A model generated the notes under the pieces. It searched no databases. It was not told the origin of the DNA and saw nothing but the letters and a program-made list of their open reading frames with translations. From positions 1 to 20,613 of IMG/VR virus record IMGVR_UViG_3300013126_000306: a DNA stretch of 20,613 bases; one strand, 5' to 3'. Numbering within the stretch: position 1 is the first letter of the stretch; each line of letters begins with the position of its first letter. Position numbers and translations under genes: made by a program. Origin of the DNA: a virus. Shown piece after piece: positions 778 through 20,285 of the stretch.

Positions 778-807
778 AAAAAATCCCGGCAAGGAGTTGG
801 CCGGGAT
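777..807 (-). terminator. Intrinsic terminator of the leftward operon
   Basis: On the - strand, an 8-bp perfect stem (783-790 pairs with 800-807, ATCCCGGC/GCCGGGAT) with a 9-nt loop is followed directly by a run of seven T (complement of 777-783). The T run is only on the - strand side, so it stops transcripts of the leftward replication genes before they read into the + strand structural gene. It overlaps the stop codon of that gene. Confidence 0.85.
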
Positions 808-810
808 AAA

Positions 811-853
811 TGTTGGGAAGTCCAACAGAGGAGAGTAGATGGACAACATCTAC
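811..853. other. Two further hairpins next to the terminator
   Basis: 811-816 pairs with 822-827 (TGTTGG/CCAACA, 5-nt loop), and 835-841 pairs with 847-853 (GTAGATG/CATCTAC, 5-nt loop). With the terminator stem this gives three hairpins in about 75 nt between converging genes. Read on the + strand, GGA triplets fall in or beside the loops and in the linker. No T run follows either hairpin, so they do not look like terminators. Function unknown. Confidence 0.45.
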
Positions 854-922
854 GGGGCGAAATGTATCACACTATTCTCCAAATGCGAAGTCCTAGTTTG
901 CCACCCTCAACTCTCCCCCTAA
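839..922 (+). CDS. Possible 27-aa mini-ORF with a strong ribosome site
   Basis: ATG at 839 is preceded by GAGGAGAGTAG, the same extended ribosome site that stands before many of the - strand genes. The reading frame is short (starts MDNIYGAKC) and its second half overlaps the end of the convergent gene at 867. Either a real small peptide or the stub of a + strand gene that once followed the structural gene. The peptide itself resembles nothing I know, so support rests on the ribosome site only. Confidence 0.25.
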   Translation: MDNIYGAKCITLFSKCEVLVCHPQLSP

Positions 923-1097
923 ATTCAAGCTGCCAATTCTTACGTCGGGCAACCTGCCTTAGCTGACTTTTTAACTTTTTCAGGTTCAGTGCGGGAACAA
1001 ATACTGACATACCTACCTCCCATTTATGGTAGGGAATCTTAATAACCACCCCATCAGGGTTTACTTCAGGTAGTGGTTTGGGTGGTGGGCTCCACAT
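867..1097 (-). CDS. Small conserved phage protein, DUF7303-like
   Basis: 76 residues, overlapping the end of the primase gene by 32 nt. The core 'IPYHKWEVGMSVFVPALN' and the end 'GKLGLRIWRIV' follow a pattern I recall from small phage proteins (IPF..mevGdSFFVP ... gvRVWRI), now called DUF7303. The middle is basic (LKKLKSQLRQVARRKNW), which would fit nucleic-acid contact. An internal ATG at 1010 has a much better ribosome site (GGGAGGT), but starting there would cut off the conserved IPYHKW part, so the longer form is preferred. Role unknown; its place suggests replication. Confidence 0.6.
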   Translation of the reverse strand: MWSPPPKPLPEVNPDGVVIKIPYHKWEVGMSVFVPALNLKKLKSQLRQVARRKNWQLEFRGRVEGGKLGLRIWRIV

Positions 1098-3903: not shown

Positions 3904-3929
3904 AGCCGCTTCCTCCGCAGTGAAAAGTA

Positions 3930-3985
3930 GGGCGACAGGACTCCCTGCGGCACGGAGCCTTTTCAATCCGTCGATCTAGTCGCCC
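3930..3985 (-). other. Branched RNA fold in the leader of the primase gene
   Basis: In the 94-nt gap between the SSB-like and primase genes, 3930-3936 (GGGCGAC) pairs with 3979-3985. Inside it, 3952-3956 pairs with 3967-3971 (ACGGA/TCCGT), and a short CAGG/CCTG hairpin spans 3936-3947. The fold ends about 10 nt before the ribosome site of the primase. No T run follows, so it is not an intrinsic terminator. It could tune primase translation or be an mRNA processing site. Confidence 0.3.
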
Positions 3986-3997
3986 GTAGGCTACAAC

Positions 3998-4819
3998 TTA
4001 CTCGTCATCAAACTCATTGAGTAAGTCAGACAGTTTAGTGTCCGGCTCAGTTTTCTTTGCTACTACCTTTGGTTCAGGCAGTGCAGCAGGGGCGTTGCGT
4101 ACCCCATCAGTTTGAGCCACTGTCATTGTGATTGCTGCAAACGCTTCAGGTGCATCCTTGGCTTCACGCACCATGTTGAACTCGTCCTCAGTGATAGGAC
4201 GCACAGGCTTAAATACAAGTTTTGGTGTGGGGCTTGAAGTATCAAACCGCATCTCGGTGACCACACCCGTGATAGGTGCGCCATGTGCCTCAAGGTGTTT
4301 TGCATAAGCAATCAGAGGCCACTTGTTCTTATCACCATCTCCAAAAATACTCGTAGCTGGTAGCGTAAGCTGATAAATAAAACCGTTAGGTTCGTTCTCA
4401 GGGATCACTGCAAGACGGCGTTGGAAGCGACACGCACGGCTATCGCCCTGGCCAGAACCCTTAGCGTTCTGGGGGCAGTCAGCACATTTATTAGCCTGAC
4501 GGTTACGTGCTTTAGCATCAGGGGTGATGCCATCGTTTGACCAGCAGTCGGGTGCAGATACCTGCCCCTTCACATAACTACCTGCGTAAAACATCCGACT
4601 GTTCTGCGCCGCAGCTTTGACAATGATGATGTTCATCGAGCGGTCTTCGTTGACAGCAATTTCTTTACCGCCCACCAACATACGGAACACACCACCTTCA
4701 ATGGAGATACGTTTTGCACCATTTGTGCTGCTGCCACCAGCCAAGGCACTTGTTGCTTCGTCTTGCATATCTTTGAGATATGCGGGGAGCCCACCTTTGA
4801 ATAAAGTCAGTTCAGCCAT
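3998..4819 (-). CDS. Single-stranded DNA-binding-like protein with zinc cluster
   Basis: 273 residues. A central beta-rich part surrounds a four-cysteine cluster (DCWSND, then KCADCP, then RACRFQ), which could hold zinc, as in phage SSBs of the gp32 type. The C-terminus is a long flexible linker ending LLNEFDDE, the acidic tail typical of SSBs that recruits replication partners. It lies directly upstream of the primase gene and downstream of an HTH gene whose TAG stop overlaps its ribosome site (TAGGAGTATTAAATG), so translation is coupled. I infer SSB from the tail, the cluster and the context; no clear OB-fold motif can be proven by eye. Confidence 0.6.
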   Translation of the reverse strand: MAELTLFKGGLPAYLKDMQDEATSALAGGSSTNGAKRISIEGGVFRMLVGGKEIAVNEDRSMNIIIVKAAAQNSRMFYAGSYVKGQVSAPDCWSNDGITPDAKARNRQANKCADCPQNAKGSGQGDSRACRFQRRLAVIPENEPNGFIYQLTLPATSIFGDGDKNKWPLIAYAKHLEAHGAPITGVVTEMRFDTSSPTPKLVFKPVRPITEDEFNMVREAKDAPEAFAAITMTVAQTDGVRNAPAALPEPKVVAKKTEPDTKLSDLLNEFDDE

Positions 4820-4828
4820 TTAATACTC

Positions 4829-5080
4829 CTAGAGGTCTTTGTCTGGGTTGAAATCAAGTTCTAACTGTCGAGGATCTTTTTTCTGTTCCTCTTCTTCCTT
4901 TGCCTTGCTGTAATGCTTCAGTGCTGCGTCAACATCAGACAGCTTAAAGCGATACACGTTGGCAATTTTTAGTGCGGGGATGATGTCAGCTCTCATCCAT
5001 GAGCGCACGGTTGAGATGGACACTGAGTAATGCTTCGCCACATCTTCAATCGTGATGTACTTCTCATCAACGACTTCCAT
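4829..5080 (-). CDS. Excisionase/MerR-type helix-turn-helix protein
   Basis: 83 residues. Residues 8-54 follow the HTH_17 (excisionase-like) pattern: 'ITIEDVAKHYSVSISTVRSW' is the helix-turn-helix and 'YRFKLSDVDAAL' the wing and last helix. A highly charged tail (KAKEEEEQKKD) follows. No integrase is in view, so it is more likely a small DNA-binding regulator or origin factor than a true excisionase. Its ATG overlaps the stop of the gene upstream (TAATG), with GGAGAA as ribosome site. It is in the transcript from the promoter at 5521-5549 and could act back on the palindrome there. Confidence 0.8.
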   Translation of the reverse strand: MEVVDEKYITIEDVAKHYSVSISTVRSWMRADIIPALKIANVYRFKLSDVDAALKHYSKAKEEEEQKKDPRQLELDFNPDKDL

Positions 5081-5490
5081 TAATTTCTCCTGCGTTGAAC
5101 GGTTACGGAGTATTCGCTGTCCACATTCAGTCCCGGTGGCAGCAGATCGGGGTTGCTCTCTAGGAACTCTTTCAAATTAGTTTGGTGCACTCGCTTCTCT
5201 AGCACCTGTGGGATGTTGTGCTCCATGATGAAGTTATAAAAATTGTCCCAATCGCTCGTCCAGTATTTTTTACTCATCGTGCGGTAGACCAAACCTTCAG
5301 TCGTGCGAATGCTTTCAACATTTGCAGACCTCATCTGGTCAAGTAGGGCGTTTTTCACCAAGCGCATCTTTTCGCTTATCGATTCGTACTCGGTGTCGTA
5401 GGTGCGCGTAAGTTCTTCGCGCTTTTCCCGCATCTTAATGTAAGCGCGGACTAGCTTATCGACGGAAATACCGTCCTCTTTATCAGTCAT
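5080..5490 (-). CDS. Conserved phage protein with coiled-coil N-terminus
   Basis: 136 residues, function unknown. The first 55 residues are a charged helix (MREKREELTRTYDTEYES...). Then comes 'ESIRTTEGLVYRT', 'YWTSDWDNFYNFI' and 'HQTNLKEFLESNPDLLPPGL', ending with 'SEYSVTVQRRR'. I recall this layout in many podovirus proteins annotated only as hypothetical, usually next to replication genes. First gene after the promoter at 5521-5549, with ribosome site ATAGGAGAGTACG. The next gene overlaps its stop by one base. Confidence 0.7.
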   Translation of the reverse strand: MTDKEDGISVDKLVRAYIKMREKREELTRTYDTEYESISEKMRLVKNALLDQMRSANVESIRTTEGLVYRTMSKKYWTSDWDNFYNFIMEHNIPQVLEKRVHQTNLKEFLESNPDLLPPGLNVDSEYSVTVQRRRN

Positions 5491-5514
5491 CGTACTCTCC
5501 TATCGTTGTGTTAT

Positions 5515-5531
5515 GTCGCTAATATAGTGAC
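5515..5531. promoter_or_regulatory. Candidate operator palindrome over the -10 box
   Basis: GTCGCTAATATAGTGAC is an imperfect 17-bp palindrome centred on 5523, with six of eight arm positions matching. It covers the -10 box of the promoter below, where a bound repressor would block RNA polymerase. The gene for a small HTH protein lies in the same transcript. Inference only. Confidence 0.4.
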
Positions 5532-5549
5532 ATTAGATGCTCTTGTCAA
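5521..5549 (-). promoter_or_regulatory. Sigma70-type promoter, leftward
   Basis: On the - strand TTGACA (5549-5544), a 17-nt spacer and TATATT (5526-5521). The -35 box is a perfect match and the -10 is close to consensus. The -35 box lies inside the last codons of the SNF2 helicase gene. Start of transcription should be near 5514, giving a short leader to the ATG at 5490. It would drive the coiled-coil, HTH, SSB-like, primase and DUF7303-like genes down to the terminator at 777-807. Confidence 0.7.
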
Positions 5550-7095
5550 GCACTTCCTTGTATAAGGATACAAGTTGTACGTGGGCATCAATTTTACTAT
5601 CAAGAAGTTTGTATAAATGTTTTTCTGCGTTACTGCCTACCAGCCTCACGACGGTAACCTTGTTTGTTTGCCCTGCACGGTGCGCCCGTGCGTTGGCTTG
5701 GGCGTATATCTCATGAGAAGGGGTCGGCCCCCACCACACAATCGTATCGGCAGCGGTGAGCGTTACACCATGCGCGGCAGCTTGCGGCTGCACAATCAGC
5801 ACTCGAATGTTTGCGGTGTTCTGAAAGTCGTGAAATAGCTTGGTGCGGTTAGCCGCAGTCACTTCCCCGCTGATGACCCCCACACTGATACCGTCGCCTG
5901 TAAGCTTTTCTTCCAATACCTCAATGGTGTGCTTGAATGGTACGAAAACAATAACCTTGTGGTTAGATTCCTCAATGACTTCTTGCAATACGCTGTAGCG
6001 GTTCTTGATGTCAAAGATAACGGTTTCACCTGAGTCGGTGTATGCCGCACCACATGAAATTTGCAGCAGTTTGTTAAGACCCACGGCTGCGTTGACTGCT
6101 GTAATTTCTTCTCCGGCTGCTGTGACAACCATCTGCTTGCGAAGTGTTTCGTAATACTTTTTTTGTTGTGCCGTTAGCTCGATGTCACGGGTTGCGTACA
6201 CAATGTCTGGCAGGTCAAGGCATTCGTTTTTTGTAAACCGTATGGCAGGTTGCAGTGCGTTGTACACAGTTTGGGTTGCGTTATCTTTCGGAACCCATCG
6301 GAACTTACTTATTTGGTACATCACCATGTCGCGGTAGGCAGCAAAGATTTTTGGTACACCTAGCGGGTTAACTAATTTACCCAACCCATACGCATCAAGG
6401 GGTGACTGTGCAGCGGGTGTGCCCGTCAGCATCCACAGCCATGTGTGAGGTTTGAGCAATCGATATAAAGTTTTCCACCGTACAGTGGTTGTATTTTTAT
6501 AAGCGTTCGCTTCATCGATCACAATCAGGTCAAAGTTAGCCGCAGCTATCTCGTCTTTGGCAATCGGTATGCCATCGTAATTAATAATTACAAATTCTGC
6601 ATCGCTCTTAATAATCTTCTTGCGTTTTTCTGACTGCCCATAGGCAATGTCAACGCTGCGGTGCATGGCAAACTTAAACAAATCGTTGCGCCACGCCGAG
6701 TCCATGATCGATAGTGGGCAGATAACAAGCACCCGCTTGATGACCCCTAACTTCATCAAATAGTCAGCAGCCCATATCACTGACCCTGTCTTACCTGTAC
6801 CCTGCTCGTTAAGGCAGAAGGCTCGCTTGTGTAGTGTCAGAAACGCCGCTGTGGTTTTCTGATGTTCAAAGGGTTTGTGCATACCCTCCCACTTGTAGTC
6901 ACGCAGTATGGGGGATGGTACGTTGCGTATCTTCAGGGTACGCAGTGCTTGGGCTTCGGGCAGCTCCCAATCTACAAGAACTTGTGTGGAACCAGAAGGT
7001 TCTTTACCAACGATACGGCTAGCTGGTATGTGTGCTGTAACTGTCTGTGGGTTTTTTAGACGCAATAAGAGCGCCCTATTGTCGATGATTTCCAT
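5533..7095 (-). CDS. SNF2-family DEAD-like helicase/ATPase
   Basis: 520 residues, a full SNF2-type two-lobe motor. Lobe 1: FEHQ (76-79, Q motif), Walker A EQGTGKT (97-103), Walker B VIDEAN (192-197), TGTP (224-227). Lobe 2: 'HKVIVFVPFKHT' (379-390), 'AAAHGVTLTAADTIVWW' (motif V region) and the arginine-finger motif QANARAHRAGQ (466-476). Phage enzymes of this kind move on double-stranded DNA during replication or recombination. The GGAGAG ribosome site is only three bases from ATG. The gene is preceded by a 12-nt gap after the HNH-like gene, and its 3' end carries the -35 box of the next promoter. Confidence 0.93.
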   Translation of the reverse strand: MEIIDNRALLLRLKNPQTVTAHIPASRIVGKEPSGSTQVLVDWELPEAQALRTLKIRNVPSPILRDYKWEGMHKPFEHQKTTAAFLTLHKRAFCLNEQGTGKTGSVIWAADYLMKLGVIKRVLVICPLSIMDSAWRNDLFKFAMHRSVDIAYGQSEKRKKIIKSDAEFVIINYDGIPIAKDEIAAANFDLIVIDEANAYKNTTTVRWKTLYRLLKPHTWLWMLTGTPAAQSPLDAYGLGKLVNPLGVPKIFAAYRDMVMYQISKFRWVPKDNATQTVYNALQPAIRFTKNECLDLPDIVYATRDIELTAQQKKYYETLRKQMVVTAAGEEITAVNAAVGLNKLLQISCGAAYTDSGETVIFDIKNRYSVLQEVIEESNHKVIVFVPFKHTIEVLEEKLTGDGISVGVISGEVTAANRTKLFHDFQNTANIRVLIVQPQAAAHGVTLTAADTIVWWGPTPSHEIYAQANARAHRAGQTNKVTVVRLVGSNAEKHLYKLLDSKIDAHVQLVSLYKEVLDKSI

Positions 7096-7107
7096 TTACT
7101 CTCCATA

Positions 7108-7413
7108 TTATTTTTCGCGCTTACTCGTTTCAGATACAAGTGCGCTTTTTGAACTACGTTTGAATGATCTATTCTTTGATGCGTTTTGAATAAAGTACCC
7201 GTCTTTATTTGATCCTCCGTTACTAAGTGCTTTGCGGTGGGCCACATCTTTACCTTCACGACGGTCTGCTTTCCCGTCGTGGTCTTTATCCGCACCTGTC
7301 TTGTCGATGGCGCGTCGAGCGCGTTGGCGTTCTAGCTTACCTGCTATGTCGCCCCTAGCTAGTTGTTGTTGATATTCTTTCTTGTACGGTCTGGGTTTGT
7401 TGACGTAAGGCAT
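7108..7413 (-). CDS. HNH-fold-like small basic protein
   Basis: 101 residues, very basic. 'ERQRARRAIDKTG' followed by 'GKDVAHRKALSNGGSN' and 'NASKNRSFKR' follows the order of small phage HNH proteins (VDH..PLS.GG.N ... S.sNRSf). The first catalytic position normally reads D-H; here it is A-H. There are no cysteines for the zinc seen in larger HNH enzymes. It may be a DNA-binding or packaging-type HNH relative with altered activity. Its start codon shares one base with the stop of the nuclease gene upstream. Confidence 0.55.
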   Translation of the reverse strand: MPYVNKPRPYKKEYQQQLARGDIAGKLERQRARRAIDKTGADKDHDGKADRREGKDVAHRKALSNGGSNKDGYFIQNASKNRSFKRSSKSALVSETSKREK

Positions 7414-8126
7414 TATTTGTTCTTCCCATTATGAGTGCAGCTCACTACAGGACACCAATTACGGCACAAATTATTCGGCTTGGGGTTCCACACATTGGTT
7501 TCATACGCAGTGGTTAGTCGGTCGTACTGACCGAGCCACTTTTCCCAAGTCTCTTCTTGCTGCTCTTGGTGGTACTTGTCTTTCACAAACGCATTACAGA
7601 CAACAAAAAGCAATCCTGCATTGACGCTTGTGATCTCTGGAAAATGCTTAAAGATCGCCAACGACATCAGCTCTAACTGGTCTTTGTCTGCGTACTGTGA
7701 ACTTTTACCCGTCTTGTAATCAACAACGAACGCCTTACCCCGCTCTTTGTCAATGATCGCCAAGTCCACAATCCCACGCCACCACACATCCCTAGCCCCA
7801 AACCCGCACGGTCGCAAGTCACGGGTGATTCCCATGCGGTACTCGCACAGCTTATCGCCGTTTATCTCGTTGAGCTTATCGAGCGCAGCCTTGGCGAAGT
7901 TGAAGTACGGTGGTAGCGCAGTACCGTTTTTGATGTACTCCTCAGCCGCGCTATGAAACTTTCCACCATAAATAGTGGCCTCGGTGGGGTACTCGACGAT
8001 GTCCTTGGCTACCTTAAGGTGGAAGTATTTTTTAGGGCATTGCTCAAAGAGCTTTATGCTGCTGTAACTCCACGCCGGGGTCGGCTTGGGCGGAGGGGAT
8101 CGAAGCTGCGATGATGTTTTTTGCAT
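7413..8126 (-). CDS. Cas4/AddB-like PD-(D/E)XK nuclease with possible Fe-S cluster
   Basis: About 237 residues from ATG 8126; the frame is open to another ATG at 8162 and neither has a clear ribosome site. Counting from 8162: SYSSIKLFEQCPKKY (32-46) opens the domain; G130-IVDL with D133, then VVDYKTG (147-152) with D148 and K150, then Q162 form the RecB-family active site. One early cysteine (C42) and three late ones (C233, C237, C242) copy the layout of the Fe-S nucleases Cas4 and AddB. Such phage enzymes process DNA ends in recombination. The start overlaps the upstream gene by 83 nt (or 119). Confidence 0.88.
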   Translation of the reverse strand: MQKTSSQLRSPPPKPTPAWSYSSIKLFEQCPKKYFHLKVAKDIVEYPTEATIYGGKFHSAAEEYIKNGTALPPYFNFAKAALDKLNEINGDKLCEYRMGITRDLRPCGFGARDVWWRGIVDLAIIDKERGKAFVVDYKTGKSSQYADKDQLELMSLAIFKHFPEITSVNAGLLFVVCNAFVKDKYHQEQQEETWEKWLGQYDRLTTAYETNVWNPKPNNLCRNWCPVVSCTHNGKNK

Positions 8127-8268
8127 GACGTAAGGTAGTAAGTGCGGTAAGGATATGACCATACGCCATTATTGGGTCGTTTTCAAGTAGTCTTCTTTTA
8201 GCTAATGCCAGTTCTTTTTCTGCGTTGATAAACGGCACAATGTAATCATTCAGTTCAGCAATCACCAT
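8044..8268 (-). CDS. Small helical protein of unknown function
   Basis: 74 residues, mostly helical (NDYIVPFINAEKELALAKRR, then ALTTLRHAKNIIAAS). The ribosome site is good (GGAGAAACTTATG), and the ATG overlaps the end of the polymerase gene by 14 nt. Its last third overlaps the nuclease gene in another frame. I do not recognise a family. It could be an accessory subunit of the polymerase or nuclease, but only gene order suggests this. Confidence 0.55.
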   Translation of the reverse strand: MVIAELNDYIVPFINAEKELALAKRRLLENDPIMAYGHILTALTTLRHAKNIIAASIPSAQADPGVELQQHKAL

Positions 8269-10075
8269 AAGTTTCTCCTATCCCAGATTCACAATTAATA
8301 GGTAAGCCTTGTGCCCAATCAGGAACCCAACGCATACATTCCTCAACGTAGTCCCGTGCAGCGTACTTCTCAGTCATGGGTGCAACGCAAGCAATCGCAT
8401 CATGCACGGTCAGCACTACCCGATACCGCTTGGAGATACGAACCATCTGCTCGCCTATGATGCACCGCGCAACGGCTTGGCACACGTTCTCTATAACCTT
8501 ACCACCGTAAATTTTAATCTGTCCTTTGCGGGTCTTGTACTGAAACTCATCGCCTTCACCTGCCGACAGTTCGTTGTATCGCATCAATAACTTATTGGGT
8601 AACTTGATAGCCTTGTGCTTGCCTATGATCTTCAACAGCCCCGGTCTGCCTAACGTGCCGTCGATGTTGTCTTTCATAAGCCCCAGAGCAAACTGTGCTT
8701 CGCGCCACAACGCCACGATGTGCGGATTTGTTTTACGGTAAATCTCAATGATGCGACGGCACTCATCGAGTTCTGTCTCTACCCCAAGCACCTTGAGTTG
8801 TGCCTGAAACTTGGCTGCACCCATGCCATACCCTGCACCGAGAATTGTGGTCTTGCCTACAAACCGCTGCTCCTTGGTAACCTGATCTTCATGCACACCA
8901 TAAATGGCGCTTGCCATCTTCTTGTAAACATCTTCTTTATTTGCAAACGCTTCAACCAAATCATCTTGTTGTGCTATCCATGCAAGCACCCGTGCTTCGA
9001 TCTGTGATGAGTCTGAGTCAATAATGACCTGACCCTTGGGTGGCAGGATAGATGTCTTGAGCTTGTTGGCGTTAGCCCCTCGGCTTGGAAGATTTTGTAG
9101 GTTCAGGTTATCCGACCCACCCCATCTGCCTGTATGCGCTGCGTAATACTTTAGGGGTACAGGCATCAATCCACGTTCGGCAATACCTATAAAGCGTTCA
9201 GTGCGTGTTTCTTCCAATGTAGATTTTGTGCCGATCCGCGCAGCAACCAGAGCTTGCACACGCTCATCGTCATGCTCAAGCAAAGCCTTGAATTCCTCAT
9301 CATTCTTTGCCATCGCGTAGGTTTCTTTGCCCGTCGTTGGGCTGATTTTCATCGGGGGGTCCACACCCAAAGAACGTAGCAGTTCAGCAAACTTCGGGTT
9401 GCTCATCAAGTCATCGCGGTTTGCCGCTGCATCAGTCAATAACTTTTCTTTGCGTTCACGCACTTCGGCTAAGTGTTGTTCTAATAATTCTTTATCGAGT
9501 CTTAGCACAGGCTCAGTAAACATACGTAGCGTTAAGTCAATGAGCTTGATCTCTCCTGTGGGAAAGTTTTTACCCATCATCAGTCTATCGAAGAGCGCGT
9601 AGGTCAGGTCAACGTCGTTGATGCAGTAGTCGCCATACGCCGCCAAACCTTCTTCAGTGAATTCGGTGCGGCGCACACCCATCGCGTTGATAACTTCAGT
9701 GCCCTTGACCCCAAGGTTATAGCGTTCAGCAAGGGCTTTTAACGAACCCCCCACTTCAACACCGTGCAAAGCCCTCGCCATAGATAACGTATCAAGCCAT
9801 AGCTTAGGGCGAATATCAAACACCCAATTAAGAATGGCACCATCAAACATAGCATTGTGAGCAAGGCCAGCACTCCCCTCCCAATCGAACTGTATGAGCC
9901 AAGTCTTGATCTGTTCATGTGTACCACTTGCCCACTCCGTTTGGTTGTCGTCTACCTTTACTGCTACACCAATCACCTCAAAGAATGGACTGCGTATGTA
10001 CTCCTCAGTTGTCATCTTGCTCAGTGAATATTCGCGGTTGTAGTAGGTTTCAAAATCAATCGTTATTATTTTCAT
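8255..10075 (-). CDS. Family A DNA polymerase with 3'-5' exonuclease
   Basis: 606 residues. N-terminal DEDDy exonuclease: DFET at 7-10, HNAMFDG 73-79, and YCIND 150-154. Polymerase domain: DSDSSQIEARVLAW 353-366 (motif A), K408 and YGMG 416-419 (motif B), VHDA 557-560 (motif C). This is the phage replicase. The start at 10075 (MKIITIDFET) has GAGGTAAGG just upstream; the frame runs on to 10174 but without a ribosome site and into the next gene. It overlaps the preceding gene by 20 nt. No uracil or extra insert is seen; length fits podovirus polymerases of the T7 type, slightly short. Confidence 0.95.
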   Translation of the reverse strand: MKIITIDFETYYNREYSLSKMTTEEYIRSPFFEVIGVAVKVDDNQTEWASGTHEQIKTWLIQFDWEGSAGLAHNAMFDGAILNWVFDIRPKLWLDTLSMARALHGVEVGGSLKALAERYNLGVKGTEVINAMGVRRTEFTEEGLAAYGDYCINDVDLTYALFDRLMMGKNFPTGEIKLIDLTLRMFTEPVLRLDKELLEQHLAEVRERKEKLLTDAAANRDDLMSNPKFAELLRSLGVDPPMKISPTTGKETYAMAKNDEEFKALLEHDDERVQALVAARIGTKSTLEETRTERFIGIAERGLMPVPLKYYAAHTGRWGGSDNLNLQNLPSRGANANKLKTSILPPKGQVIIDSDSSQIEARVLAWIAQQDDLVEAFANKEDVYKKMASAIYGVHEDQVTKEQRFVGKTTILGAGYGMGAAKFQAQLKVLGVETELDECRRIIEIYRKTNPHIVALWREAQFALGLMKDNIDGTLGRPGLLKIIGKHKAIKLPNKLLMRYNELSAGEGDEFQYKTRKGQIKIYGGKVIENVCQAVARCIIGEQMVRISKRYRVVLTVHDAIACVAPMTEKYAARDYVEECMRWVPDWAQGLPINCESGIGETYGDC

Positions 10076-10394
10076 CCTTACCTCTGTAAATAGTTGAACG
10101 CCATTTTGTAACGACCATCCCATGCACCGAACGGCTGTTGGCTCTAGCCCACCCATCTGCCACAACAACCCCATCGCGCTTAGCTTGTAGTGCTACAGCC
10201 CCCCATGCCCTTTCGTCCGGGGGGAGGGGCATATCTAAATTACTTTTACGTACTTCTTCTGTCATAAAAAATTGATTGTGTATGGCATGTTTTCTGAACG
10301 CTGCATAGGCTTCAGCCTTCCATGCTTCCCCCGCATTATCTGCGGCTACTTCTGCCATTGAATGCCCAATGGCTAGACCTTCGTGGTTGCTCAT
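10056..10394 (-). CDS. Conserved phage protein with RAWG motif
   Basis: 112 residues, function unknown. 'HNQFFMTEEVR', 'PPDERAWGAVALQAKRDG' and 'HGMVVTKWRS' form a pattern that I recall from many phages and prophages (hN..F..edvR ... p.d.RAWG.v ... h....WrS), usually beside replication genes. Ribosome site AGGAGAGATAG before ATG. It overlaps the polymerase start, suggesting coupled translation and a replication-linked role. Confidence 0.7.
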   Translation of the reverse strand: MSNHEGLAIGHSMAEVAADNAGEAWKAEAYAAFRKHAIHNQFFMTEEVRKSNLDMPLPPDERAWGAVALQAKRDGVVVADGWARANSRSVHGMVVTKWRSTIYRGKDENNND

Positions 10395-13902: not shown

Positions 13903-14254
13903 ACATATCACCTGTCACGCCAAGGTATCGACATAAAGAAATCGCGCACCGCTGTAAAAACGTAGGGATGGGAACCTGCTCCTGATCTGGCACAGCTTCG
14001 CTAAACATGGGAACAAACGGCTGCGGCTTGTCCTCTTGCTTGGGAACTACTATCGGGGGCGGGGTAGTTTGTGTAGCGCGGCGTTTGCGCTCGATGTCAA
14101 CAGCACGGTATATGGTTGACCGCGCACGACCCGTCAGTGATCCTATGACATCGACGGTAATACCTGATTCATACATGCTATAAATCTTACGCACTTCTGA
14201 ACGGGGCATACGCCTACGGCGGGAAGCTGTGGGCGAGTAAGTCTTTGAGTTCAT
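13889..14254 (-). CDS. Resolvase-type helix-turn-helix protein
   Basis: 121 residues. 'MPRSEVRKIYSMYESG', 'VIGSLTGRARSTIYRAV' is an HTH like the DNA-binding part of resolvases/transposases (HTH_38/HTH_23). A proline-rich linker (TTPPPIVVPKQEDKPQP) joins it to a short C-terminal helix. No catalytic domain, so a regulator or DNA-bridging protein is likelier than a recombinase. Ribosome site GAGGAG; 41-nt overlap with the VRR-NUC gene. Confidence 0.7.
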   Translation of the reverse strand: MNSKTYSPTASRRRRMPRSEVRKIYSMYESGITVDVIGSLTGRARSTIYRAVDIERKRRATQTTPPPIVVPKQEDKPQPFVPMFSEAVPDQEQVPIPTFLQRCAISLCRYLGVTGDMYGRN

Positions 14255-14507
14255 CTATATTCTCCTCGTTGATTACGATTGCTAAACCCCCTGCACTTCT
14301 TATTTGTGCAAGGTTCTTCTCCTGTAAGGCTGTGGTCTTTCCTTTACCTGCCTTACATTCGATTCCTATAAACGCACTGTTAAAACACACCACAAAGTCT
14401 GGTGCACCTGAGTTGCCATACCCACCTGTGATGGGCATGACGTAGTAAGCGCCAAGTGCTTGAAGCACCTCGCGTACTTTCTTTTTAACTTTCGCTTCCG
14501 GTGTCAT
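14214..14507 (-). CDS. VRR-NUC nuclease
   Basis: 97 residues from ATG 14507 (GAGGAGAATC before it). 'GAPDFVVCFNSAFIGIECKA' holds the PD..(E)xK active site (D37, E50, K52), with Q62 after TTALQ as in stand-alone VRR-NUC enzymes. These small phage nucleases act on branched DNA or flaps and probably serve replication or recombination. Second PD-(D/E)XK nuclease in the window. Confidence 0.9.
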   Translation of the reverse strand: MTPEAKVKKKVREVLQALGAYYVMPITGGYGNSGAPDFVVCFNSAFIGIECKAGKGKTTALQEKNLAQIRSAGGLAIVINEENIDELKDLLAHSFPP

Positions 14508-14757
14508 GATTCTCCTCAAAATAAATCCAAAAGATGTTGTCGCTGATACGCCGCCCTATGCCTTCTACAAATTCAGTCGGTGCAACCATCATGAGCACAG
14601 CAAGTCTGCGCTGTATCCACTCAGGTATTTCCGACATATCGGTTGTAGTGATTGGTGGGTCTAAGTCCCACCGCAAAGGATCAAACGGGCAAAACATTAA
14701 CTTACCCTTGCATACTTCAACTCGCACGATGTTGGTCATACGCATGGGTTCTTTCAT
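14485..14757 (-). CDS. Small protein sharing a C-terminal motif with its neighbour
   Basis: 90 residues; start at 14757 chosen as the first ATG after the upstream stop, behind GGAGAAGGA. After a short beta-rich start, the end reads 'FVEGIGRRISDNIFWIYFEE', which matches 'YVEGLGVRLDDTHFWIERDE' at the end of the gene upstream. A preceding stretch also lines up (IPEWIQRRLAVL against LPHDIAAKIATL). It looks like a stand-alone copy of that C-terminal domain. Function unknown. Confidence 0.65.
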   Translation of the reverse strand: MKEPMRMTNIVRVEVCKGKLMFCPFDPLRWDLDPPITTTDMSEIPEWIQRRLAVLMMVAPTEFVEGIGRRISDNIFWIYFEENHDTGSES

Positions 14758-14764
14758 GATGGGT

Positions 14765-15727
14765 TTATCCTTCTCCTTGTTCGTCGCGTTCAATCCAAAA
14801 ATGTGTATCGTCTAGTCGCACACCAAGCCCCTCCACATAAGATCCATGATCTGTAATTGATAAAGTTGCAATCTTTGCAGCGATGTCGTGCGGCAAGTCA
14901 TCGAGCTTAAAGAGTTGTTTCGGTCCATCGGTCACGATGTGTCCGTTCTGCCTGACGTTCATAGCCGTGATGACTGTGGCCCACTGCACACCACGCACAT
15001 CGTTGACCCATATGTAATACATATTTGTACTTCGCATACGCTCATACCTAAGATCACGTATCAAATCCCCAAACACTTCGGCTAATTTCTGGAACGCTGC
15101 TGTTTTAAATTTCACACCGCAGTCCACCAGATGTTCAAACTCCTCGATGATGGTTGACGGGCCGAAGGTAGCTTTGTCGTAAAACAAGTTGGTCTTGCGA
15201 TCAAGCACATGCCGCAGGGTGCGGTTGGGTACGTACATTGACATGGCTGCATCGTCCTCGGGTGTGTACGGTATAAGTTTTGCAGAGGCAAGCTTTGCCG
15301 CACGATCAAGACTCGTGGTGAGCATGGTGTAGTACATCAGTGTGCCTTTCTTGTAGCGTGAGTTCTTGATGCGCGTTGACCGCACCATGTACACATAGGC
15401 ATCTGAGTTCTGCATGTACTGACCAAACCCGATCAACCCCATACAGTGGAGTGCGCCTTCTCGATAAACAGCAATCTCCCGGTGTGTCTGTACTTCATCT
15501 CTCCCAAATTTCGCAGTGGGCATCGCAGTGTTGATCTCGTGCATCAGGGATGCAAGGCGTTTATCTACATGCAAACCTTGGTATTCCTGAAACATAGGGT
15601 CATAAAATACGCCAGCCACGTCCTCTTTGGCTTTCAACAATCTGTCGGTGAACTTCTTAACAGTCGATACACGAGGTGGTTGAAACCCCGCCGCTGCATG
15701 TTGGTTTGCTTGTTGGTTAACTTCCAT
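14765..15727 (-). CDS. 320-aa unknown protein of the VWA-MoxR module
   Basis: 320 residues, ribosome site TAGGAGAGTTAG, 12 nt after the VWA gene. No known family recognised. It has a long helical N-terminus, 'QTHREIAVYREGALHCMGLI', 'YVYMVRSTRIKNSRYKKGT', and the C-terminal motif shared with the gene downstream. The 'ALHCMGLIGFG...YVYMVRS' part reads like a globular alpha/beta fold. Its steady position behind the VWA gene suggests it is a client, adaptor or target-binding part of the module. It has no signal peptide or membrane segment. Confidence 0.75.
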   Translation of the reverse strand: MEVNQQANQHAAAGFQPPRVSTVKKFTDRLLKAKEDVAGVFYDPMFQEYQGLHVDKRLASLMHEINTAMPTAKFGRDEVQTHREIAVYREGALHCMGLIGFGQYMQNSDAYVYMVRSTRIKNSRYKKGTLMYYTMLTTSLDRAAKLASAKLIPYTPEDDAAMSMYVPNRTLRHVLDRKTNLFYDKATFGPSTIIEEFEHLVDCGVKFKTAAFQKLAEVFGDLIRDLRYERMRSTNMYYIWVNDVRGVQWATVITAMNVRQNGHIVTDGPKQLFKLDDLPHDIAAKIATLSITDHGSYVEGLGVRLDDTHFWIERDEQGEG

Positions 15728-15739
15728 CTAACTCTCCTA

Positions 15740-16912
15740 TTAAATCTTTATGTGTAACGTAGAACCTATCGGCGCTTTGATTGTCTTTGATGTAATGCAC
15801 CACAACACGGGGCAGCGCCACGTACCCCACGTACCACCGAGATGACCATCGGTGAACACCACAACAACTTCGGGATTGATTGCGTACTCATCCATGTAAT
15901 GCCCGACGCACTCAACCATCGTGCCGCCACCACCAGCAGGTTTAGTGGATTCGATCATGTCATCATAATCGCCCTGCTCATATTTTTCCTCACGACATAC
16001 CTCTGTATCCCAATACATTAGTCTTACTGCTTCAGGATTCATTAGATGTGCAATGCTGTTAATCTCTGTGAGAAAAGTTTGTATATGTTTCTGGCTTATC
16101 GAACCTGACGTATCGATGGCAATGACGATCTCTCCCATCTCCTCGGCAATCTGCCCCGGCATACGCATACCATGTGGCAACAGCTTGCGGTTGAACTTGC
16201 GCCACGTTGATACCCCACGCCCCTTGTTGTAAGAAAGCAGGAACTCAGCAAGCTGAGTGCGCCAATCAACCTTGGGTTCAAGTAACTTCTCAACAGTCCG
16301 ATCACCACCCGTGCCTGTCTTACTTGCAAGCAGTGCACCCTGACGCAGTGCTTCGTTGATCTGCCGCTCAAACTCTTTGGCTTCATCGGGTGAGAGTTCC
16401 TTGGCTGACTCCCAATCGTGATCGTCCATGCTGTCCTCTTTCGGATCATCAGGCAGCAGCGCATAGATCTCATGCACATCAAGGTTGGTTGCATCAATAC
16501 CAAAGAGCGCACCAGACATACCGCCATCGGGTGGTCGCTTGATGAAGTCAGGATGTTGCTTGGCTATGGGATCAAGCCAGTTGTCGTTGATCATGATGTC
16601 GCAAGCTATGTTCGCTCGCCTGTGATTCTCCTCATACAGGTGATGCCATGCAGTGAGATGCCTGTACATCTTGTGGCCTGTCTCATGCAGGATCAGATAG
16701 CGGAACTCGGGATCGTTCAATCCTTCTACAAACTTCTCACCGTATCCTTCGTCAACCCCGTTAGTCCATGCGGTTGAGCAGTCAGCGATTGACTTGCTGC
16801 CAAGCAGTAGCACAGGGCCGGTTGCTATCACGGCAGGGTGCGACATGATGATCTGCACGTTACGCTCTAAGCGTTGTGATGCGGTTAGTGGTTTGCCAAA
16901 TACAAGTGCCAT
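15740..16912 (-). CDS. VWA domain protein with HExxH metallopeptidase-like part (DUF2201 type)
   Basis: 390 residues. N-terminal part: LHETGHKMYRH (75-85) gives the zinc-binding HExxH, and 'NIACDIMINDNWL' (101-113) supplies the next conserved stretch. An acidic linker follows. The C-terminal von Willebrand A domain has a complete MIDAS: D267, S269, S271 (IDTSGSIS), T331 (GGGGT) and D355 (VFTDG). Such proteins work with MoxR-type ATPases, where the metal site grips a partner that the ATPase then remodels. It lies two genes behind the ATPase and has its own palindrome upstream (16929-16945) and a TAGGAGAGTTAC ribosome site. Confidence 0.9.
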   Translation of the reverse strand: MALVFGKPLTASQRLERNVQIIMSHPAVIATGPVLLLGSKSIADCSTAWTNGVDEGYGEKFVEGLNDPEFRYLILHETGHKMYRHLTAWHHLYEENHRRANIACDIMINDNWLDPIAKQHPDFIKRPPDGGMSGALFGIDATNLDVHEIYALLPDDPKEDSMDDHDWESAKELSPDEAKEFERQINEALRQGALLASKTGTGGDRTVEKLLEPKVDWRTQLAEFLLSYNKGRGVSTWRKFNRKLLPHGMRMPGQIAEEMGEIVIAIDTSGSISQKHIQTFLTEINSIAHLMNPEAVRLMYWDTEVCREEKYEQGDYDDMIESTKPAGGGGTMVECVGHYMDEYAINPEVVVVFTDGHLGGTWGTWRCPVLWCITSKTIKAPIGSTLHIKI

Positions 16913-16921
16913 GTAACTCTC

Positions 16922-17116
16922 CTAAAGATTTCCTACGGTAGGAAAAATGTTTTTAATTTCTGTCGGTCTACCGGTTAACCCGATGGGTGGGGGATAAAGC
17001 AGATTGCACGTCCCCCTCGTGCCTAGGCGTATGTGGATGTCATGACCACCACCCCCGCACACCCACATACTGAACCCGACGCTCACATCTGCCATGCTAG
17101 TCAGGCTCATTGTCAT
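16922..17116 (-). CDS. Possible 64-aa small protein between ATPase and VWA genes
   Basis: Fills the 213-nt gap. Starts MTMSLTSMADVSVGF, has a glycine run with two cysteines nearby (WVCGGGGHD ... GTRGTCNLL), and ends FPTVGNL, which is coded by the palindrome itself. The stop TAG lies in the VWA gene's ribosome site. The ribosome site for this ORF is weak (AAGGTG, 12 nt away). It may be real or only an open leader; codon use cannot decide by eye. Confidence 0.4.
   Translation of the reverse strand: MTMSLTSMADVSVGFSMWVCGGGGHDIHIRLGTRGTCNLLYPPPIGLTGRPTEIKNIFPTVGNL
16929..16945. promoter_or_regulatory. Palindrome copy 1, upstream of the VWA gene
   Basis: TTTCCTACGGTAGGAAA, perfect 8-bp arms around one base. 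It ends 17 nt before the VWA start codon, next to its ribosome site. Identical to the copy at 20269. Likely an operator for a phage regulator; as RNA it could also fold into a 7-bp hairpin. Confidence 0.75.
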
Positions 17117-17125
17117 GATGCGGGG

Positions 17126-18250
17126 TTACACCTTGTCTGATGTTGTGAGGTAATTATTAGCAAGCGCCCATGTCTGGAACTTACTGTTTGTCATCACAAT
17201 GCTGCGCTTGTGGTAGGTATCTTTCTTAGCAGTCATAGCGAACATACCCTGTACTGACTTGGGTAACCGTAGCATGTACTCCATCCATGAGTCCATCCAG
17301 TTGCGCTCGATGATGGACAGTGTGCGGTGCACCACCATACATGCTGCTGCCATGTTGTTCGGTACATGCGCCGTCTTGGGCGAAGTCTTGATGTCGTTGA
17401 GCTTTGGCAGATCGTTGAGCATTGCCAAGTAAGTAGCCAGACTCTGCGCTGCGGGTGCACCGATTGTGCCAATCAACGCAGCAGTTATAACCTTGTCGGT
17501 CACTTTGTTTTCCAGCGCATGTACTACATCGCTCGCAGCTTCCAAGCTACGACCTGTGACAAAGGCTTCCCTGTTTACATCACCGGGGATGTAAATCATG
17601 GTGTTGCTTTCGCGGTTGGCTTTGGAGATCTCACCCTTGTCGTCCATGAGATCGGTAAAGGATTGGAATACTTCGGGGTGCTCGCCCACCCATGAGATCA
17701 CCGCAGGGTGAATGTTTGCAGCGTAGGCAAACCCCTCGATCCACTCTAGTTGCTGTGCCTTACGCATGTTCACGACAACCAATCGGTTGCGGTGGTGGGG
17801 CATCAGGATGTCGCCCACTTTCTCAAGTGCAAGGTTAGTGGTTGCAAAGATCATGCTACCAAACGGTAGCCGATCACGCTCAAGCATGTCACGCATCAGT
17901 GCGTTCTTTACACCCTTTTCTGCCTTGCCGATCTCATCAACACACAACACCACAGGTTTGCTGTGATGTATGCCGTACTCTTCAGTAGGTACGTATCGCA
18001 CGTAGTCCACGCCATCGGCGGTCTTCTCAAAGTTGGGCAGGTGAATGTCGCCCGAGTCCATCTTGGTGGTGCAGTCAAAGTACGCATACGCATACTTGTC
18101 GCCAAGACGCTGCTTAAGAATTTTAAGGATAGATGTCTTACCCCAACCCATGTCACCACGTACAACGACGGTACGTTTTGGGCTTACATACTCAATCAAG
18201 GTTGCACACTCGTTGATGTTAAGTGCGTACATAGATGATGCTGTCAACAT
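17126..18250 (-). CDS. MoxR-like AAA+ ATPase
   Basis: 374 residues from ATG 18250 (GGAGAG upstream; a GTG six bases earlier is possible). Walker A GDMGWGKTS at 32-40, Walker B VVLCVDEIGK at 100-109, sensor 1 FATTN at 135-139 and arginines in HHRNR near 152-156. The order and the spacing fit MoxR/CbbQ-type AAA+ chaperones. The C-terminal 200 residues are helical and have no extra domain. It should power the VWA protein to remodel a target complex. Two palindromes and a terminator-like stem lie between it and the DUF3150-like gene. Confidence 0.9.
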   Translation of the reverse strand: MLTASSMYALNINECATLIEYVSPKRTVVVRGDMGWGKTSILKILKQRLGDKYAYAYFDCTTKMDSGDIHLPNFEKTADGVDYVRYVPTEEYGIHHSKPVVLCVDEIGKAEKGVKNALMRDMLERDRLPFGSMIFATTNLALEKVGDILMPHHRNRLVVVNMRKAQQLEWIEGFAYAANIHPAVISWVGEHPEVFQSFTDLMDDKGEISKANRESNTMIYIPGDVNREAFVTGRSLEAASDVVHALENKVTDKVITAALIGTIGAPAAQSLATYLAMLNDLPKLNDIKTSPKTAHVPNNMAAACMVVHRTLSIIERNWMDSWMEYMLRLPKSVQGMFAMTAKKDTYHKRSIVMTNSKFQTWALANNYLTTSDKV

Positions 18251-18275
18251 GATCACTCTCCTATTTATATAAAGA

Positions 18276-18292
18276 TTTCCTACTGTAGGAAA
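18276..18292. promoter_or_regulatory. Palindrome copy 2, upstream of the ATPase gene
   Basis: TTTCCTACTGTAGGAAA, perfect arms, 25 nt before the ATPase start. On the - strand it is followed by TCTTTATATAAATAGGAGAG, so a TATATA box may sit beside it. An A-rich tail (AAAAAAGAAAAAGGG) adjoins it on the + strand and is repeated at copy 3. Confidence 0.75.
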
Positions 18293-18322
18293 AAAGAAAA
18301 AGGGTAGAATAAGTGGTAGAGT

Positions 18323-18339
18323 TTTCCTACTGTAGTAAA
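18323..18339. promoter_or_regulatory. Palindrome copy 3, degenerate, tandem with copy 2
   Basis: TTTCCTACTGTAGTAAA, one mismatch in the right arm. It lies 47 bp from copy 2 centre to centre and shares the same A-rich tail, so the pair is a ~30-bp direct repeat. Two sites at one promoter suggest cooperative binding or looping. Confidence 0.65.
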
Positions 18340-18376
18340 AAAGAAAAAGGGGTGGGGGGTACTGCTACACCCCACC
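18336..18376 (-). terminator. Terminator or attenuator after the DUF3150-like gene
   Basis: On the - strand GGTGGGG (18376-18370) can pair with CCCCACC (18357-18351), followed by CC and TTTTTCTTTTTT. A second pairing, GGTACT (near 18386-18381) with AGTACC (near 18363-18358), would break this stem, so the two folds exclude each other. This would lower read-through from the DUF3150-like gene into the ATPase gene. Confidence 0.55.
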
Positions 18377-18385
18377 TTGTAGTAC

Positions 18386-19267
18386 CTACCAAGCGATCTC
18401 TTTGAGGATCGCATCTACCTTGCGCTTCACGTCATGCCTGAACCCGTCGTCCTCACGCAAGGCATCGGGTGTTACTCCATCGAGTGCGTCCATCAGCTTG
18501 ACTCGCGCACGTTCCATACTGTCATCGCCCGTCAGGTTGAACTCAGACAACAGACTCACCATATCCCGAGCGTTCTCGACCAGACTATCCCTAAAGATCT
18601 TCTTGTCTTCCTTGCCCATATAGTCAAGGCGCTCGGACATATTGCTCAACGCTTTGTGCACCCGCTCCCATGCGTCGTTCATTGCAGTCAGGATCAGATC
18701 ACCGTAGTGCTTGGTGTACTCCTGCTGAATATACTTAGCCGCTTCGTCCATGATGTCGGTGCGAAAGTCCGTGGCAATCGGCACAGGTGCTATGACAAAC
18801 CTAAACTTTGTGCTGATCACATCGCGTGATGGGTAGTCATCCCGCTTGAACATATCGCCTAGTGCAAATGCTGCACCGCTCACCGCTGTGTCGTACTCAT
18901 CCACAAACTGCTTGACCATGCCCCAAAAAGTTTTGCCATGTGCATCCATGATCGGCACGTACTTGTTGAAGAACAGATCGTTCTTGATAACGCGAATCGC
19001 AGACCACGGTTGGGTTAGTGAGTAATGCTCGTTGCGAACATTGGCTATGAACTTGTGGATCTCACTGAGCGTGGGGTTGTCTGCCAAAAGATCTTTGGTC
19101 ACGCTCGCTGTGTTGTCCTTGGCGCGGTTAGCCCTGCTCAGCGCAGTGCTGATGTCCTTATCCTTCTTGCGCCCTGTCCATACAGAGAATGAAAAGTCCA
19201 CGCCGATGAACGACGATTGAAGGGTTGGGATTGATTGAAGCTTTGGTGCATCTAGATTTAGAACCAC
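18386..19267 (-). CDS. DUF3150-like protein
   Basis: 293 residues from a GTG start with CAGGAGAGTAATC before it. 'GVDFSFSVWTGRKKDKD' at the start, a helical middle ('VPIMDAHGKTFWGMVKQFVDEY'), and a long helical end fit the DUF3150 family as I remember it. That family is often coded next to MoxR-like ATPase and VWA genes in phages and bacteria, which supports the call. It may connect the ATPase to its target. First gene behind the promoter at 19327-19356; no membrane segment or enzyme motif is seen. Confidence 0.65.
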   Translation of the reverse strand: MVLNLDAPKLQSIPTLQSSFIGVDFSFSVWTGRKKDKDISTALSRANRAKDNTASVTKDLLADNPTLSEIHKFIANVRNEHYSLTQPWSAIRVIKNDLFFNKYVPIMDAHGKTFWGMVKQFVDEYDTAVSGAAFALGDMFKRDDYPSRDVISTKFRFVIAPVPIATDFRTDIMDEAAKYIQQEYTKHYGDLILTAMNDAWERVHKALSNMSERLDYMGKEDKKIFRDSLVENARDMVSLLSEFNLTGDDSMERARVKLMDALDGVTPDALREDDGFRHDVKRKVDAILKEIAW

Positions 19268-19419: not shown

Positions 19420-19585
19420 CTACCCCTCCCATCATGAATTGAAAATGTCCGTTACGCTTGAAGTAAATATGCAGCCAACGCAGTGTGTGCGGGCTGGCTC
19501 TTTTCATCATCCAATCTACCTTCTTTGGATCAACGCCGATCTCGATGAACATGCGCCTGAGATCTTTCTTGTACGCCCATGTCAT
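19409..19585 (-). CDS. 58-aa basic protein
   Basis: Starts MTWAYKKDLRRMFIEIGVD, then 'KKVDWMMKRASPHTLRWLHI' and ends GGVDER. Strong ribosome site AAGGAGGG eight bases upstream, inside the last codons of the HNH gene, whose stop overlaps the ATG as ATGA. Small, basic, probably two helices. No family recognised. Confidence 0.6.
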   Translation of the reverse strand: MTWAYKKDLRRMFIEIGVDPKKVDWMMKRASPHTLRWLHIYFKRNGHFQFMMGGVDER

Positions 19586-20010
19586 TTAACTAGCCCTCCT
19601 TGCTTTAAATAAATTGTTCCTTGGTCTCGCAATCGGGCTTTCAAAGTTTGGTAGGGAACCCCCGACTCTTCTGCCCACTGCGCTAATGGTTTACCGTCAA
19701 AAACTAAAGCCCTTCTTGTGTTTCGCATCTGCTCACTTTTCGTAGACCATTTGCAGTTTTCGGGTTCGTAGTTTTTGTTTGAGTCGATTCGATCTAGCGA
19801 CTTACCTTCAGGACGTTCACCCATGTCCAATAAGAAGTTGTCAAACAATTTCCATCGCTCGCATACAGTTATTCCACGCCCTCCATACTGTGAATATTTA
19901 GCGTGCCGTGGGTAACTGCATCGTTGAATCATCCCTACCCAAGACATATAAGTGGGGCTCCATTTCGCACGCGTCGCGTGTCCATGACGAAGTGTGGTAA
20001 AGGCTTTCAT
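19582..20010 (-). CDS. Stand-alone HNH endonuclease
   Basis: 142 residues. 'YMSWVGMIQRCSYPRHAKY', 'YGGRGITVCERWKLFDNFL', 'SLDRIDSNKNYEPENCKW' and 'SEQMRNTRR' are the well-known order of phage HNH proteins found free-standing between genes; the C-terminal 'LAQWAEESGVPYQTLKARL' is an HTH for DNA binding. Often a mobile homing-type nuclease. The ribosome site AGGAG lies in a perfect CTCCTAGGAG palindrome. The stop is fused to the next gene (ATGA), so if it was inserted, it is now well settled. Confidence 0.85.
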   Translation of the reverse strand: MKAFTTLRHGHATRAKWSPTYMSWVGMIQRCSYPRHAKYSQYGGRGITVCERWKLFDNFLLDMGERPEGKSLDRIDSNKNYEPENCKWSTKSEQMRNTRRALVFDGKPLAQWAEESGVPYQTLKARLRDQGTIYLKQGGLVK

Positions 20011-20037: not shown

Positions 20038-20250
20038 TTACTTTACCATACCGCCTTTACAATTCAACCCTGCGAGCAGGGATTTGTCTGTTATCAGCAT
20101 GTAGTTGCTCTTGTGCATGGGAGCCACGCACCACGAACTGCGAACTTCTTTTGCAGCGTCCTCCCTGCAATCCCAACACAACCCATTGAGCATCCCAATG
20201 GGTTCGGCAATGTCATCGCCACATACTCTACAGTGCATCCATCGTTTCAT
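20038..20250 (-). CDS. Small zinc-ribbon protein
   Basis: 70 residues. C-x2-C (HCRVCGDD) and C-x2-C (GLCWDCRED) give a short zinc knuckle pair; the remainder is unremarkable and ends GGMVK. Ribosome site ATAGGAGAGTGAT, with a palindrome copy just upstream, so it belongs to the same regulated set as the ATPase and VWA genes. Possibly a transcription or adaptor protein; not known. Confidence 0.65.
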   Translation of the reverse strand: MKRWMHCRVCGDDIAEPIGMLNGLCWDCREDAAKEVRSSWCVAPMHKSNYMLITDKSLLAGLNCKGGMVK

Positions 20251-20268: not shown

Positions 20269-20285
20269 TTTCCTACGGTAGGAAA
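20269..20285. promoter_or_regulatory. Palindrome copy 4, upstream of the zinc-ribbon gene
   Basis: TTTCCTACGGTAGGAAA, identical to copy 1, 18 nt before the start codon. The - strand reads on as TTTTTATAGGAGAG, so the flank next to the ribosome site is conserved among copies as well. Confidence 0.75.

Follow-up and report, generated by a model that had tools for sequence, protein, structure and literature searches.

A MoxR ATPase, metallopeptidase-VWA and DUF3150 gene set with phage-specific partners, a candidate remodelling and proteolysis module of uncultured phages

Introduction

The MoxR-VWA systems RavA-ViaA, NorQ-NorD, CbbQ-CbbO and Midasin/Rea1 have respiratory enzymes, Rubisco or pre-ribosomes as clients. 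To our knowledge, none of them includes a DUF2201_N peptidase domain. In phages, a MoxR pair was noted in 2007 in a Bacillus phage (PMC2147016). A MoxR ATPase with a fused metallopeptidase-vWA protein was described in group 2.2 jumbo phages, and a role in virion assembly with processing of structural proteins was proposed (PMC7824862). For bacterial ternary conflict systems with MoxR and vWA proteins, an action against invaders has been proposed (PMC7159879; PMC12839542). This study concerns the IMG/VR virus fragment IMGVR_UViG_3300013126_000306 (20,613 bases, in the following the window). Its minus strand carries a block of genes for a DUF3150-like protein, a MoxR ATPase and a VWA/metallopeptidase protein, together called the triad, and for two proteins named p320 and p102. 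The comparisons below suggest that the five genes may encode an early, intracellular, ATP-powered remodelling and proteolysis complex that is aimed by p320 and p102 at a host protein. We give this reading a probability of about 0.4.

Results

The minus-strand block was confirmed at the place and strand given for its four larger genes in the initial annotation, which had been made from the sequence of the window. In 5' to 3' direction it starts with the DUF3150-like helical protein (293 amino acids, 18386..19267, GTG start after AGGAGAGT), followed by the MoxR-type AAA+ ATPase (17126..18250), the DUF2201_N metallopeptidase and VWA protein (390 amino acids, 15740..16912), p320 (14765..15727) and p102 (14485..14757), and it adjoins replication genes. 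The longest open reading frame (ORF) of the ATPase begins with GTG 18256; the start is likely ATG 18250 behind AGGAGAGT.

IMG/VR was searched with the VWA protein, p320 and the DUF3150-like protein as queries, which yielded about 100 loci, and the ORFs were scanned by iterated hidden Markov model (HMM) searches. The gene set was examined over about 80 IMG/VR contigs, with counts taken where sequence room allowed. The carriers are uncultured marine and freshwater phages. Loci with the VWA gene had MoxR and DUF3150 in 58 of 58 cases. p320 was present in 52 of 52 testable loci, p102 in 49/52 and the VRR-NUC-like nuclease gene (VRR) in 51/52. The presence of DUF3150 was partly guaranteed by the locus selection, that of p320 was not, except for L018-L021. 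Most loci are ordered DUF3150-MoxR-VWA-p320-p102-VRR-PolA-Cas4-SNF2. Most of the group L004-L017 is permuted to MoxR-VWA-DUF3150-p320-p102. That the genes stay together although their order has changed speaks more strongly for a functional set than plain neighbourhood would. The initial annotation had regarded the genes as a module, with the 320-amino-acid protein and a small relative as its specific part. Synteny and co-occurrence agree with this: the genes were found together in relatives and not scattered, p320 and p102 are phage-specific, and the small relative is p102. An additional conserved protein of about 310 amino acids without Pfam match is encoded between VWA and p320 in 26 loci (e.g., L024 4711-5682). 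This gene is absent from the window.

The VWA protein was identified by Pfam and by its invariant motifs. It exceeded the Pfam cut-offs for DUF2201_N (E 5e-9; 36.5 bits, cut-off 23.2) and DUF2201 (E 1.4e-15; 57.9 bits, cut-off 26.4). A HETGH motif and an intact metal ion-dependent adhesion site (MIDAS) had been noted before, and all residues are present: H76, E77 and H80 of the HExxH motif and a complete MIDAS with D267, S269, S271, T331 and D355. Downstream of HExxH, D105 is the probable third metal ligand. These residues are invariant in 31 relatives and also in 20 sequences from N4, Thermus phage phiFa, cyanophage S-TIM5, MinM2 and plasmids. Since peptidase and MIDAS residues are invariant from N4, the Thermus phage and the cyanophage to plasmids, both activities are probably used. 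The protein matches PHROG 1314 (E 1e-67), which is named 'HNH endonuclease', a name copied to N4 gp25 and to many phage records. Pfam recognised in N4 gp25 (L110 2165-3307) a metallopeptidase (E 3e-87) and a VWA domain (E 1e-46). By their domains, the PHROG 1314 proteins are DUF2201 metallopeptidase-VWA proteins, despite their name. Comparison of the VWA protein with PADLOC and NCBIfam gave nothing.

The MoxR ATPase matches PHROG 1297 (E 2e-36); against Pfam AAA_5 alone it stayed below the cut-off. The P-loop residues G34, G37 and K40 as well as D107, E108, N141 and R236 are invariant in 31 sequences. The invariant residues of the two proteins indicate selection for a working ATPase, a working peptidase and a metal-dependent binding site. 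That the three sites act jointly would follow by analogy from MoxR-VWA systems in general. In a search of the PDB, the MoxR profile found Midasin (E 1e-16) and NorQ (E 0.005). NorQ among these matches and the intact MIDAS could point to a chaperone for metal insertion or cofactor loading of a metalloenzyme, like CobST, NorQD or CbbQO. Such a function is very improbable for this module, as the NorQ match is far weaker than that of Midasin, the VWA protein has an invariant peptidase site and no gene of a metalloenzyme client travels with the module.

The third protein is called DUF3150-like because it misses the cut-off of PF11348 itself; it had no match to this Pfam family. Among its relatives, 30 of 38 match PF11348 (E up to 0.1, best 5e-10), and an hhalign comparison with a plasmid DUF3150 protein gave a probability of 99.85% over the full length. 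The AlphaFold2 model is helical with a predicted local distance difference test (pLDDT) score of 83. The structure search retrieved generic helical bundles alone, PDB sequences provided no relevant match, and PADLOC and NCBIfam nothing. In the open-access literature, a scope without subscription papers and preprints, no paper mentioning DUF3150 was found.

For p320, no match was obtained in Pfam, PHROG, NCBIfam and PADLOC, none in phages by tblastn and no relevant one among PDB sequences. p102 was likewise without match to known families, including those of PADLOC and NCBIfam. An AlphaFold2 model of p320 from 44 sequences had a pLDDT of 85 and a predicted template modelling (pTM) score of 0.81. 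Foldseek and VIA-align searches of the PDB with this model gave no match (best E 0.46; Z at most 4.5), and four predicted structures of uncultured phages (uncultured Caudovirales) matched with E <0.001. p102 is a standalone copy of the C-terminal domain of p320 (hhalign 97.8%, E 7e-13), the shared part being the last ~80 residues of p320. This domain keeps Pro, Leu and Gly residues and has V-x-G-x-G-x-R...(F/Y)(W/Y) near the C-terminus. The most likely start of p102 is ATG 14757 (~90 amino acids), with TTG 14793 (102 amino acids) as alternative. Its ribosome-binding site overlaps the p320 stop codon. In the same genomes, median pairwise identity was 27% for p320, 38% for p102, 48-59% for the triad and 63-67% for VRR and PolA. 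Divergence of this degree would suit a p320 that has to keep up with a variable target. Neither p320 nor p102 was found in the plasmid loci examined, N4, MinM2 or Rhizobium phage TM27B, and the MinM2 genes downstream of VWA are not p320 relatives. This distribution and divergence characterise p320/p102 as a phage-only, fast-evolving family and as a phage addition to the triad.

Relatives of DUF3150 occur on 29 to 42 plasmids, mostly of Burkholderiales and often conjugative. Large plasmids of Cupriavidus, Burkholderia, Caballeronia and Rhodovastum have DUF3150 between MoxR and VWA on one strand. On a Simplicispira plasmid, the ATPase is ~3 kb away. A link to a 'cobS' of the SXT/IncC type was unsupported, as the plasmid search gave Burkholderiales and few others. 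On a plasmid of Candidatus Manganitrophus (L117 5830-8852), DUF3150 comes after AAA ATPase, DUF1257 and DUF2997 genes, not with MoxR and VWA. DUF3150 is rare in bacterial genomes: 2/398 in a sample of phyla and 3/300 in a sample of orders, the weakest match being marginal. A first scan of genome contigs with the phage DUF3150 profile found nothing. By this occurrence, the triad belongs to the accessory genes of mobile elements. Its contiguity on plasmids that are without p320 means that the core has a role beyond virions.

Relatives of the VWA protein were found in 579 phage records. The VWA and MoxR profiles recovered N4 gp25 and gp24, which are adjacent. With the pair known in N4, in jumbo phages (PMC7824862) and in the phage of 2007 (PMC2147016), the block is no isolated oddity, as the initial annotation had framed it.

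Contig G009 (58.9 kb), which has the triad, allowed a comparison of phages with related virions. Its terminase, portal, capsid, neck and stabilisation proteins are related to those of four complete phages, the Pelagibacter phages HTVC027P and HTVC023P, 023Pt_psg01 and DSL-LC04 (capsid ~61-66%, terminase 45-50%). The whole genomes of these four phages contained no MoxR, VWA or p320, and HMM searches of the examined parts of the genomes revealed no DUF3150. Four complete phages with homologous virions are without the module; building such a virion thus does not need it. Of the targets suggested earlier for the module, namely host RNA polymerase, a defence complex and the replisome or capsid of the phage, the capsid is the least likely for the same reason. 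The comparison bears on the proposal for the jumbo-phage pair, a chaperone and cochaperone with peptidolytic processing of structural proteins in virion assembly or maturation. This proposal was published for a related pair with the Acidianus two-tailed virus as precedent (PMC7824862), and the pair of cyanophage S-TIM5 lies among genes partly annotated as structural. For the window, a virion function is nevertheless quite unlikely: phages whose capsid, portal, terminase and neck genes are homologous do without the module, the module sits in a replication block, and the triad is also found on plasmids, elements that form no virions. This judgement applies to the present lineage only; the jumbo-phage pair may differ.

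The adjoining replication genes suggest another client. The module may mature or remodel a complex of phage DNA metabolism with PolA, PD-(D/E)XK and VRR-NUC-like nucleases, SNF2 and DUF927 primase, for instance by assembling, recycling or clipping a replication or recombination protein. In nearly all loci, the module directly precedes VRR-NUC-like, PolA, Cas4-like and SNF2 genes. Related PolA, nucleases, SNF2 and primase are also found in Rhizobium phage TM27B, which keeps MoxR and VWA upstream of PolA; its terminase differs, and no match to the G009 terminase or capsid was detected. The pair likewise lies ahead of helicase, polymerase and primase genes in N4 and Vibrio phage D520. Phage KPP25, however, has homologous PolA, exonuclease, SNF2 and SSB-like genes and no MoxR, VWA or p320 across its whole genome. 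MinM2 has the triad beside different replication genes, and on plasmids, the triad has PRTRC or type IV secretion genes as neighbours instead of replication genes. According to KPP25 and MinM2, the association of module and replication genes is not strict, and a client in DNA metabolism appears rather unlikely.

Start signals and palindromes connect the triad genes. DUF3150, MoxR, VWA and p320 each begin a few nucleotides past an identical ribosome-binding site, AGGAGAGT, which occurs as such in 8 copies in the window with 0.38 expected. By this count, the initiation signals of the window are unusually uniform. A 17-bp palindrome precedes the ribosome-binding site of VWA (TTTCCTACGGTAGGAAA, 16929..16945) and that of MoxR (TTTCCTACTGTAGGAAA, 18276..18292). 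A second copy upstream of MoxR has one mismatch (18323..18339), and another copy (20269..20285) is upstream of a 70-amino-acid gene at 20038-20250. The sequence TTTCCTACNGTAGGAAA occurs four times in the window with 0.09 expected: before VWA, twice before MoxR and before the small gene further upstream. The nearest relatives have 12-13 palindrome copies, which precede DUF3150, MoxR, VWA and the genes before them; the sequence downstream of VWA has none. In the nearest one, L139, palindromes lie directly upstream of the ribosome-binding sites of the triad and of other upstream genes (762-7888). A Peptidase_M28-like gene (4049-5050) with its own palindrome precedes DUF3150 in this relative; the window has no such gene there. 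Six palindromes are located within ~1.5 kb without a long ORF (L139 762-2300), possibly a regulatory region or replication origin.

In 81 loci, the start regions of the triad genes were tested for palindromes of at least 12 nucleotides common to two or three of them. A common palindrome was found in 51 loci. Dinucleotide shuffles had 0 or 1 such locus per replicate, and the control start regions of VRR, PolA and Cas4 had it in 0/33. The palindromes are lineage-specific, with 23 strings of roughly 14 dissimilar types as grouped by eye. Their place is constant across lineages, 16-25 nucleotides before the ORF start. Palindromes also precede other upstream genes and thus mark a larger gene set of which the triad is one part. 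They suggest a co-regulated early gene set and may be either DNA operators or RNA hairpins.

This lineage specificity resembles a diversified regulatory specificity. Together with the occurrence on plasmids as well as phages and the proposed action of MoxR-vWA ternary systems against invaders (PMC7159879; PMC12839542), it would suit an anti-competitor or superinfection-exclusion system analogous to the bacterial ones. A Pfam scan with a partial model set for VMAP, FtsH-like, iSTAND and beta-propeller proteins gave nothing significant (bpX5 to the ATPase, E 0.17). Pfam and PADLOC scans recognised neither an effector domain nor a component of VMAP, iSTAND or FtsH type. Genes for exclusion should be gained and lost frequently, whereas the module is in every testable locus of the clade. 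Exclusion is therefore an improbable function.

Further features of the window surround the block. Downstream of p102 on the minus strand follow the VRR-NUC-like gene (14214..14519), small genes and the family A DNA polymerase PolA (8255..10174; Pfam DNA_pol_A E 1e-36), and after PolA a Cas4-like PD-(D/E)XK nuclease, an SNF2 helicase, an SSB-like gene and a DUF927 primase. The VRR-NUC-like protein, the conserved next gene product, is named after the annotation of a relative in a Rhizobium phage and has no Pfam match itself. Just upstream of the block, an HNH endonuclease gene (19582-20010; PHROG 3377, E 4e-45) is in no other locus and is likely a recent homing insertion. An ORF of 64 amino acids between MoxR and VWA (16922-17116) was dropped, as no relative was found. 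Searches of the window for Rfam families and tRNAs had no hit, megablast of the whole window against phages gave no match, and scans for sigma-70 promoters and terminators provided no signal above chance.

Discussion

The reading as an early complex directed at a host protein is based on the observed gene set and its synteny, the invariant residues, the homology of p102 and p320, the plasmid triad, the absence of the module from phages with homologous virions and the common palindromes. MoxR subunits would form an ATP-driven ring, on which the VWA protein may dock while its MIDAS metal site grips a partner. The zinc peptidase domain of the VWA protein could cut or trim the protein remodelled by the ring. 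DUF3150 would complete the core as a third, helical subunit that links ring and VWA protein, either as scaffold or as adaptor. p320 and p102 may be phage-specific targeting factors with a common C-terminal docking domain, and the fast-changing N-terminal part of p320 would recognise the client. The most likely client would be a host protein complex that has to be disabled or reshaped so that the incoming element can establish itself. We infer the formation of a complex, the roles of DUF3150 and p320/p102, the early timing and the host client from these comparisons. We favour a host client over the replisome, as plasmids have the triad too and phages with related replication genes can do without it. 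This preference is modest.

Several observations weigh against this reading. In nearly all loci the module neighbours replication genes, which suits a replisome client just as well. The fast evolution of p320 can look alike under weak constraint. Among the 81 loci, which are not independent of one another, 30 had no detected palindrome. None of the five proteins matched the PADLOC-DB defence models.

It is possible, if doubtful, that phages and conjugative plasmids have in the triad a common, undescribed machine, which would use ATP for targeted proteolysis or remodelling and serve to overcome a new host. p320 and p102 would be an exchangeable phage targeting arm, and the early gene set would have control palindromes diversifying between lineages as in immunity systems. 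The MoxR-VWA pair occurs in hundreds of sequenced phages, N4 included, without a known client. The DUF3150 triad ties phages to conjugative plasmids and may point to a function useful for any incoming DNA element. The p320/p102 family offers a concrete handle as candidate targeting subunit. The comparison of phages with homologous virions bears directly on the published virion-assembly proposal (PMC7824862), and from the lineage-specific palindromes, early and co-regulated expression of the module genes can be predicted and tested.

The plasmid triad comprises the same three proteins as the phage block, mostly contiguous and on a single strand. It differs in the order MoxR-DUF3150-VWA, in PRTRC or type IV secretion/transfer genes nearby and in the absence of p320 and p102. 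N4 gp24 and gp25, representing PHROG 1297 and 1314 of Schitoviridae and other phages, likewise place MoxR beside DUF2201_N and VWA before replication genes. The N4 pair is without DUF3150, p320 or p102, and its VWA protein is ~21% identical to the window protein. The jumbo-phage pair has the same domain architecture (PMC7824862), whereas the gene set and the virion comparison presented here argue against an assembly role. Ternary conflict systems with VMAP, FtsH, beta-propeller or iSTAND also combine MoxR, VWA and a third protein (PMC7159879). Their third components were unrecognised here in the Pfam scan, and the VWA domain of the window is fused to a DUF2201_N metallopeptidase. The many palindromic sites are reminiscent of stoperator and immunity-repressor systems, of which PMC6550527 gives an example; this would be an analogy and not a membership. 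RavA-ViaA, NorQ-NorD, CbbQ-CbbO and Midasin/Rea1 have a MoxR ring that works with a MIDAS-bearing VWA domain, as proposed here. Of this tightly conserved gene set, the MoxR-VWA core pair is already known; what appears to be undescribed is the DUF3150 triad with its spread over phages and plasmids, together with the p320/p102 extension.

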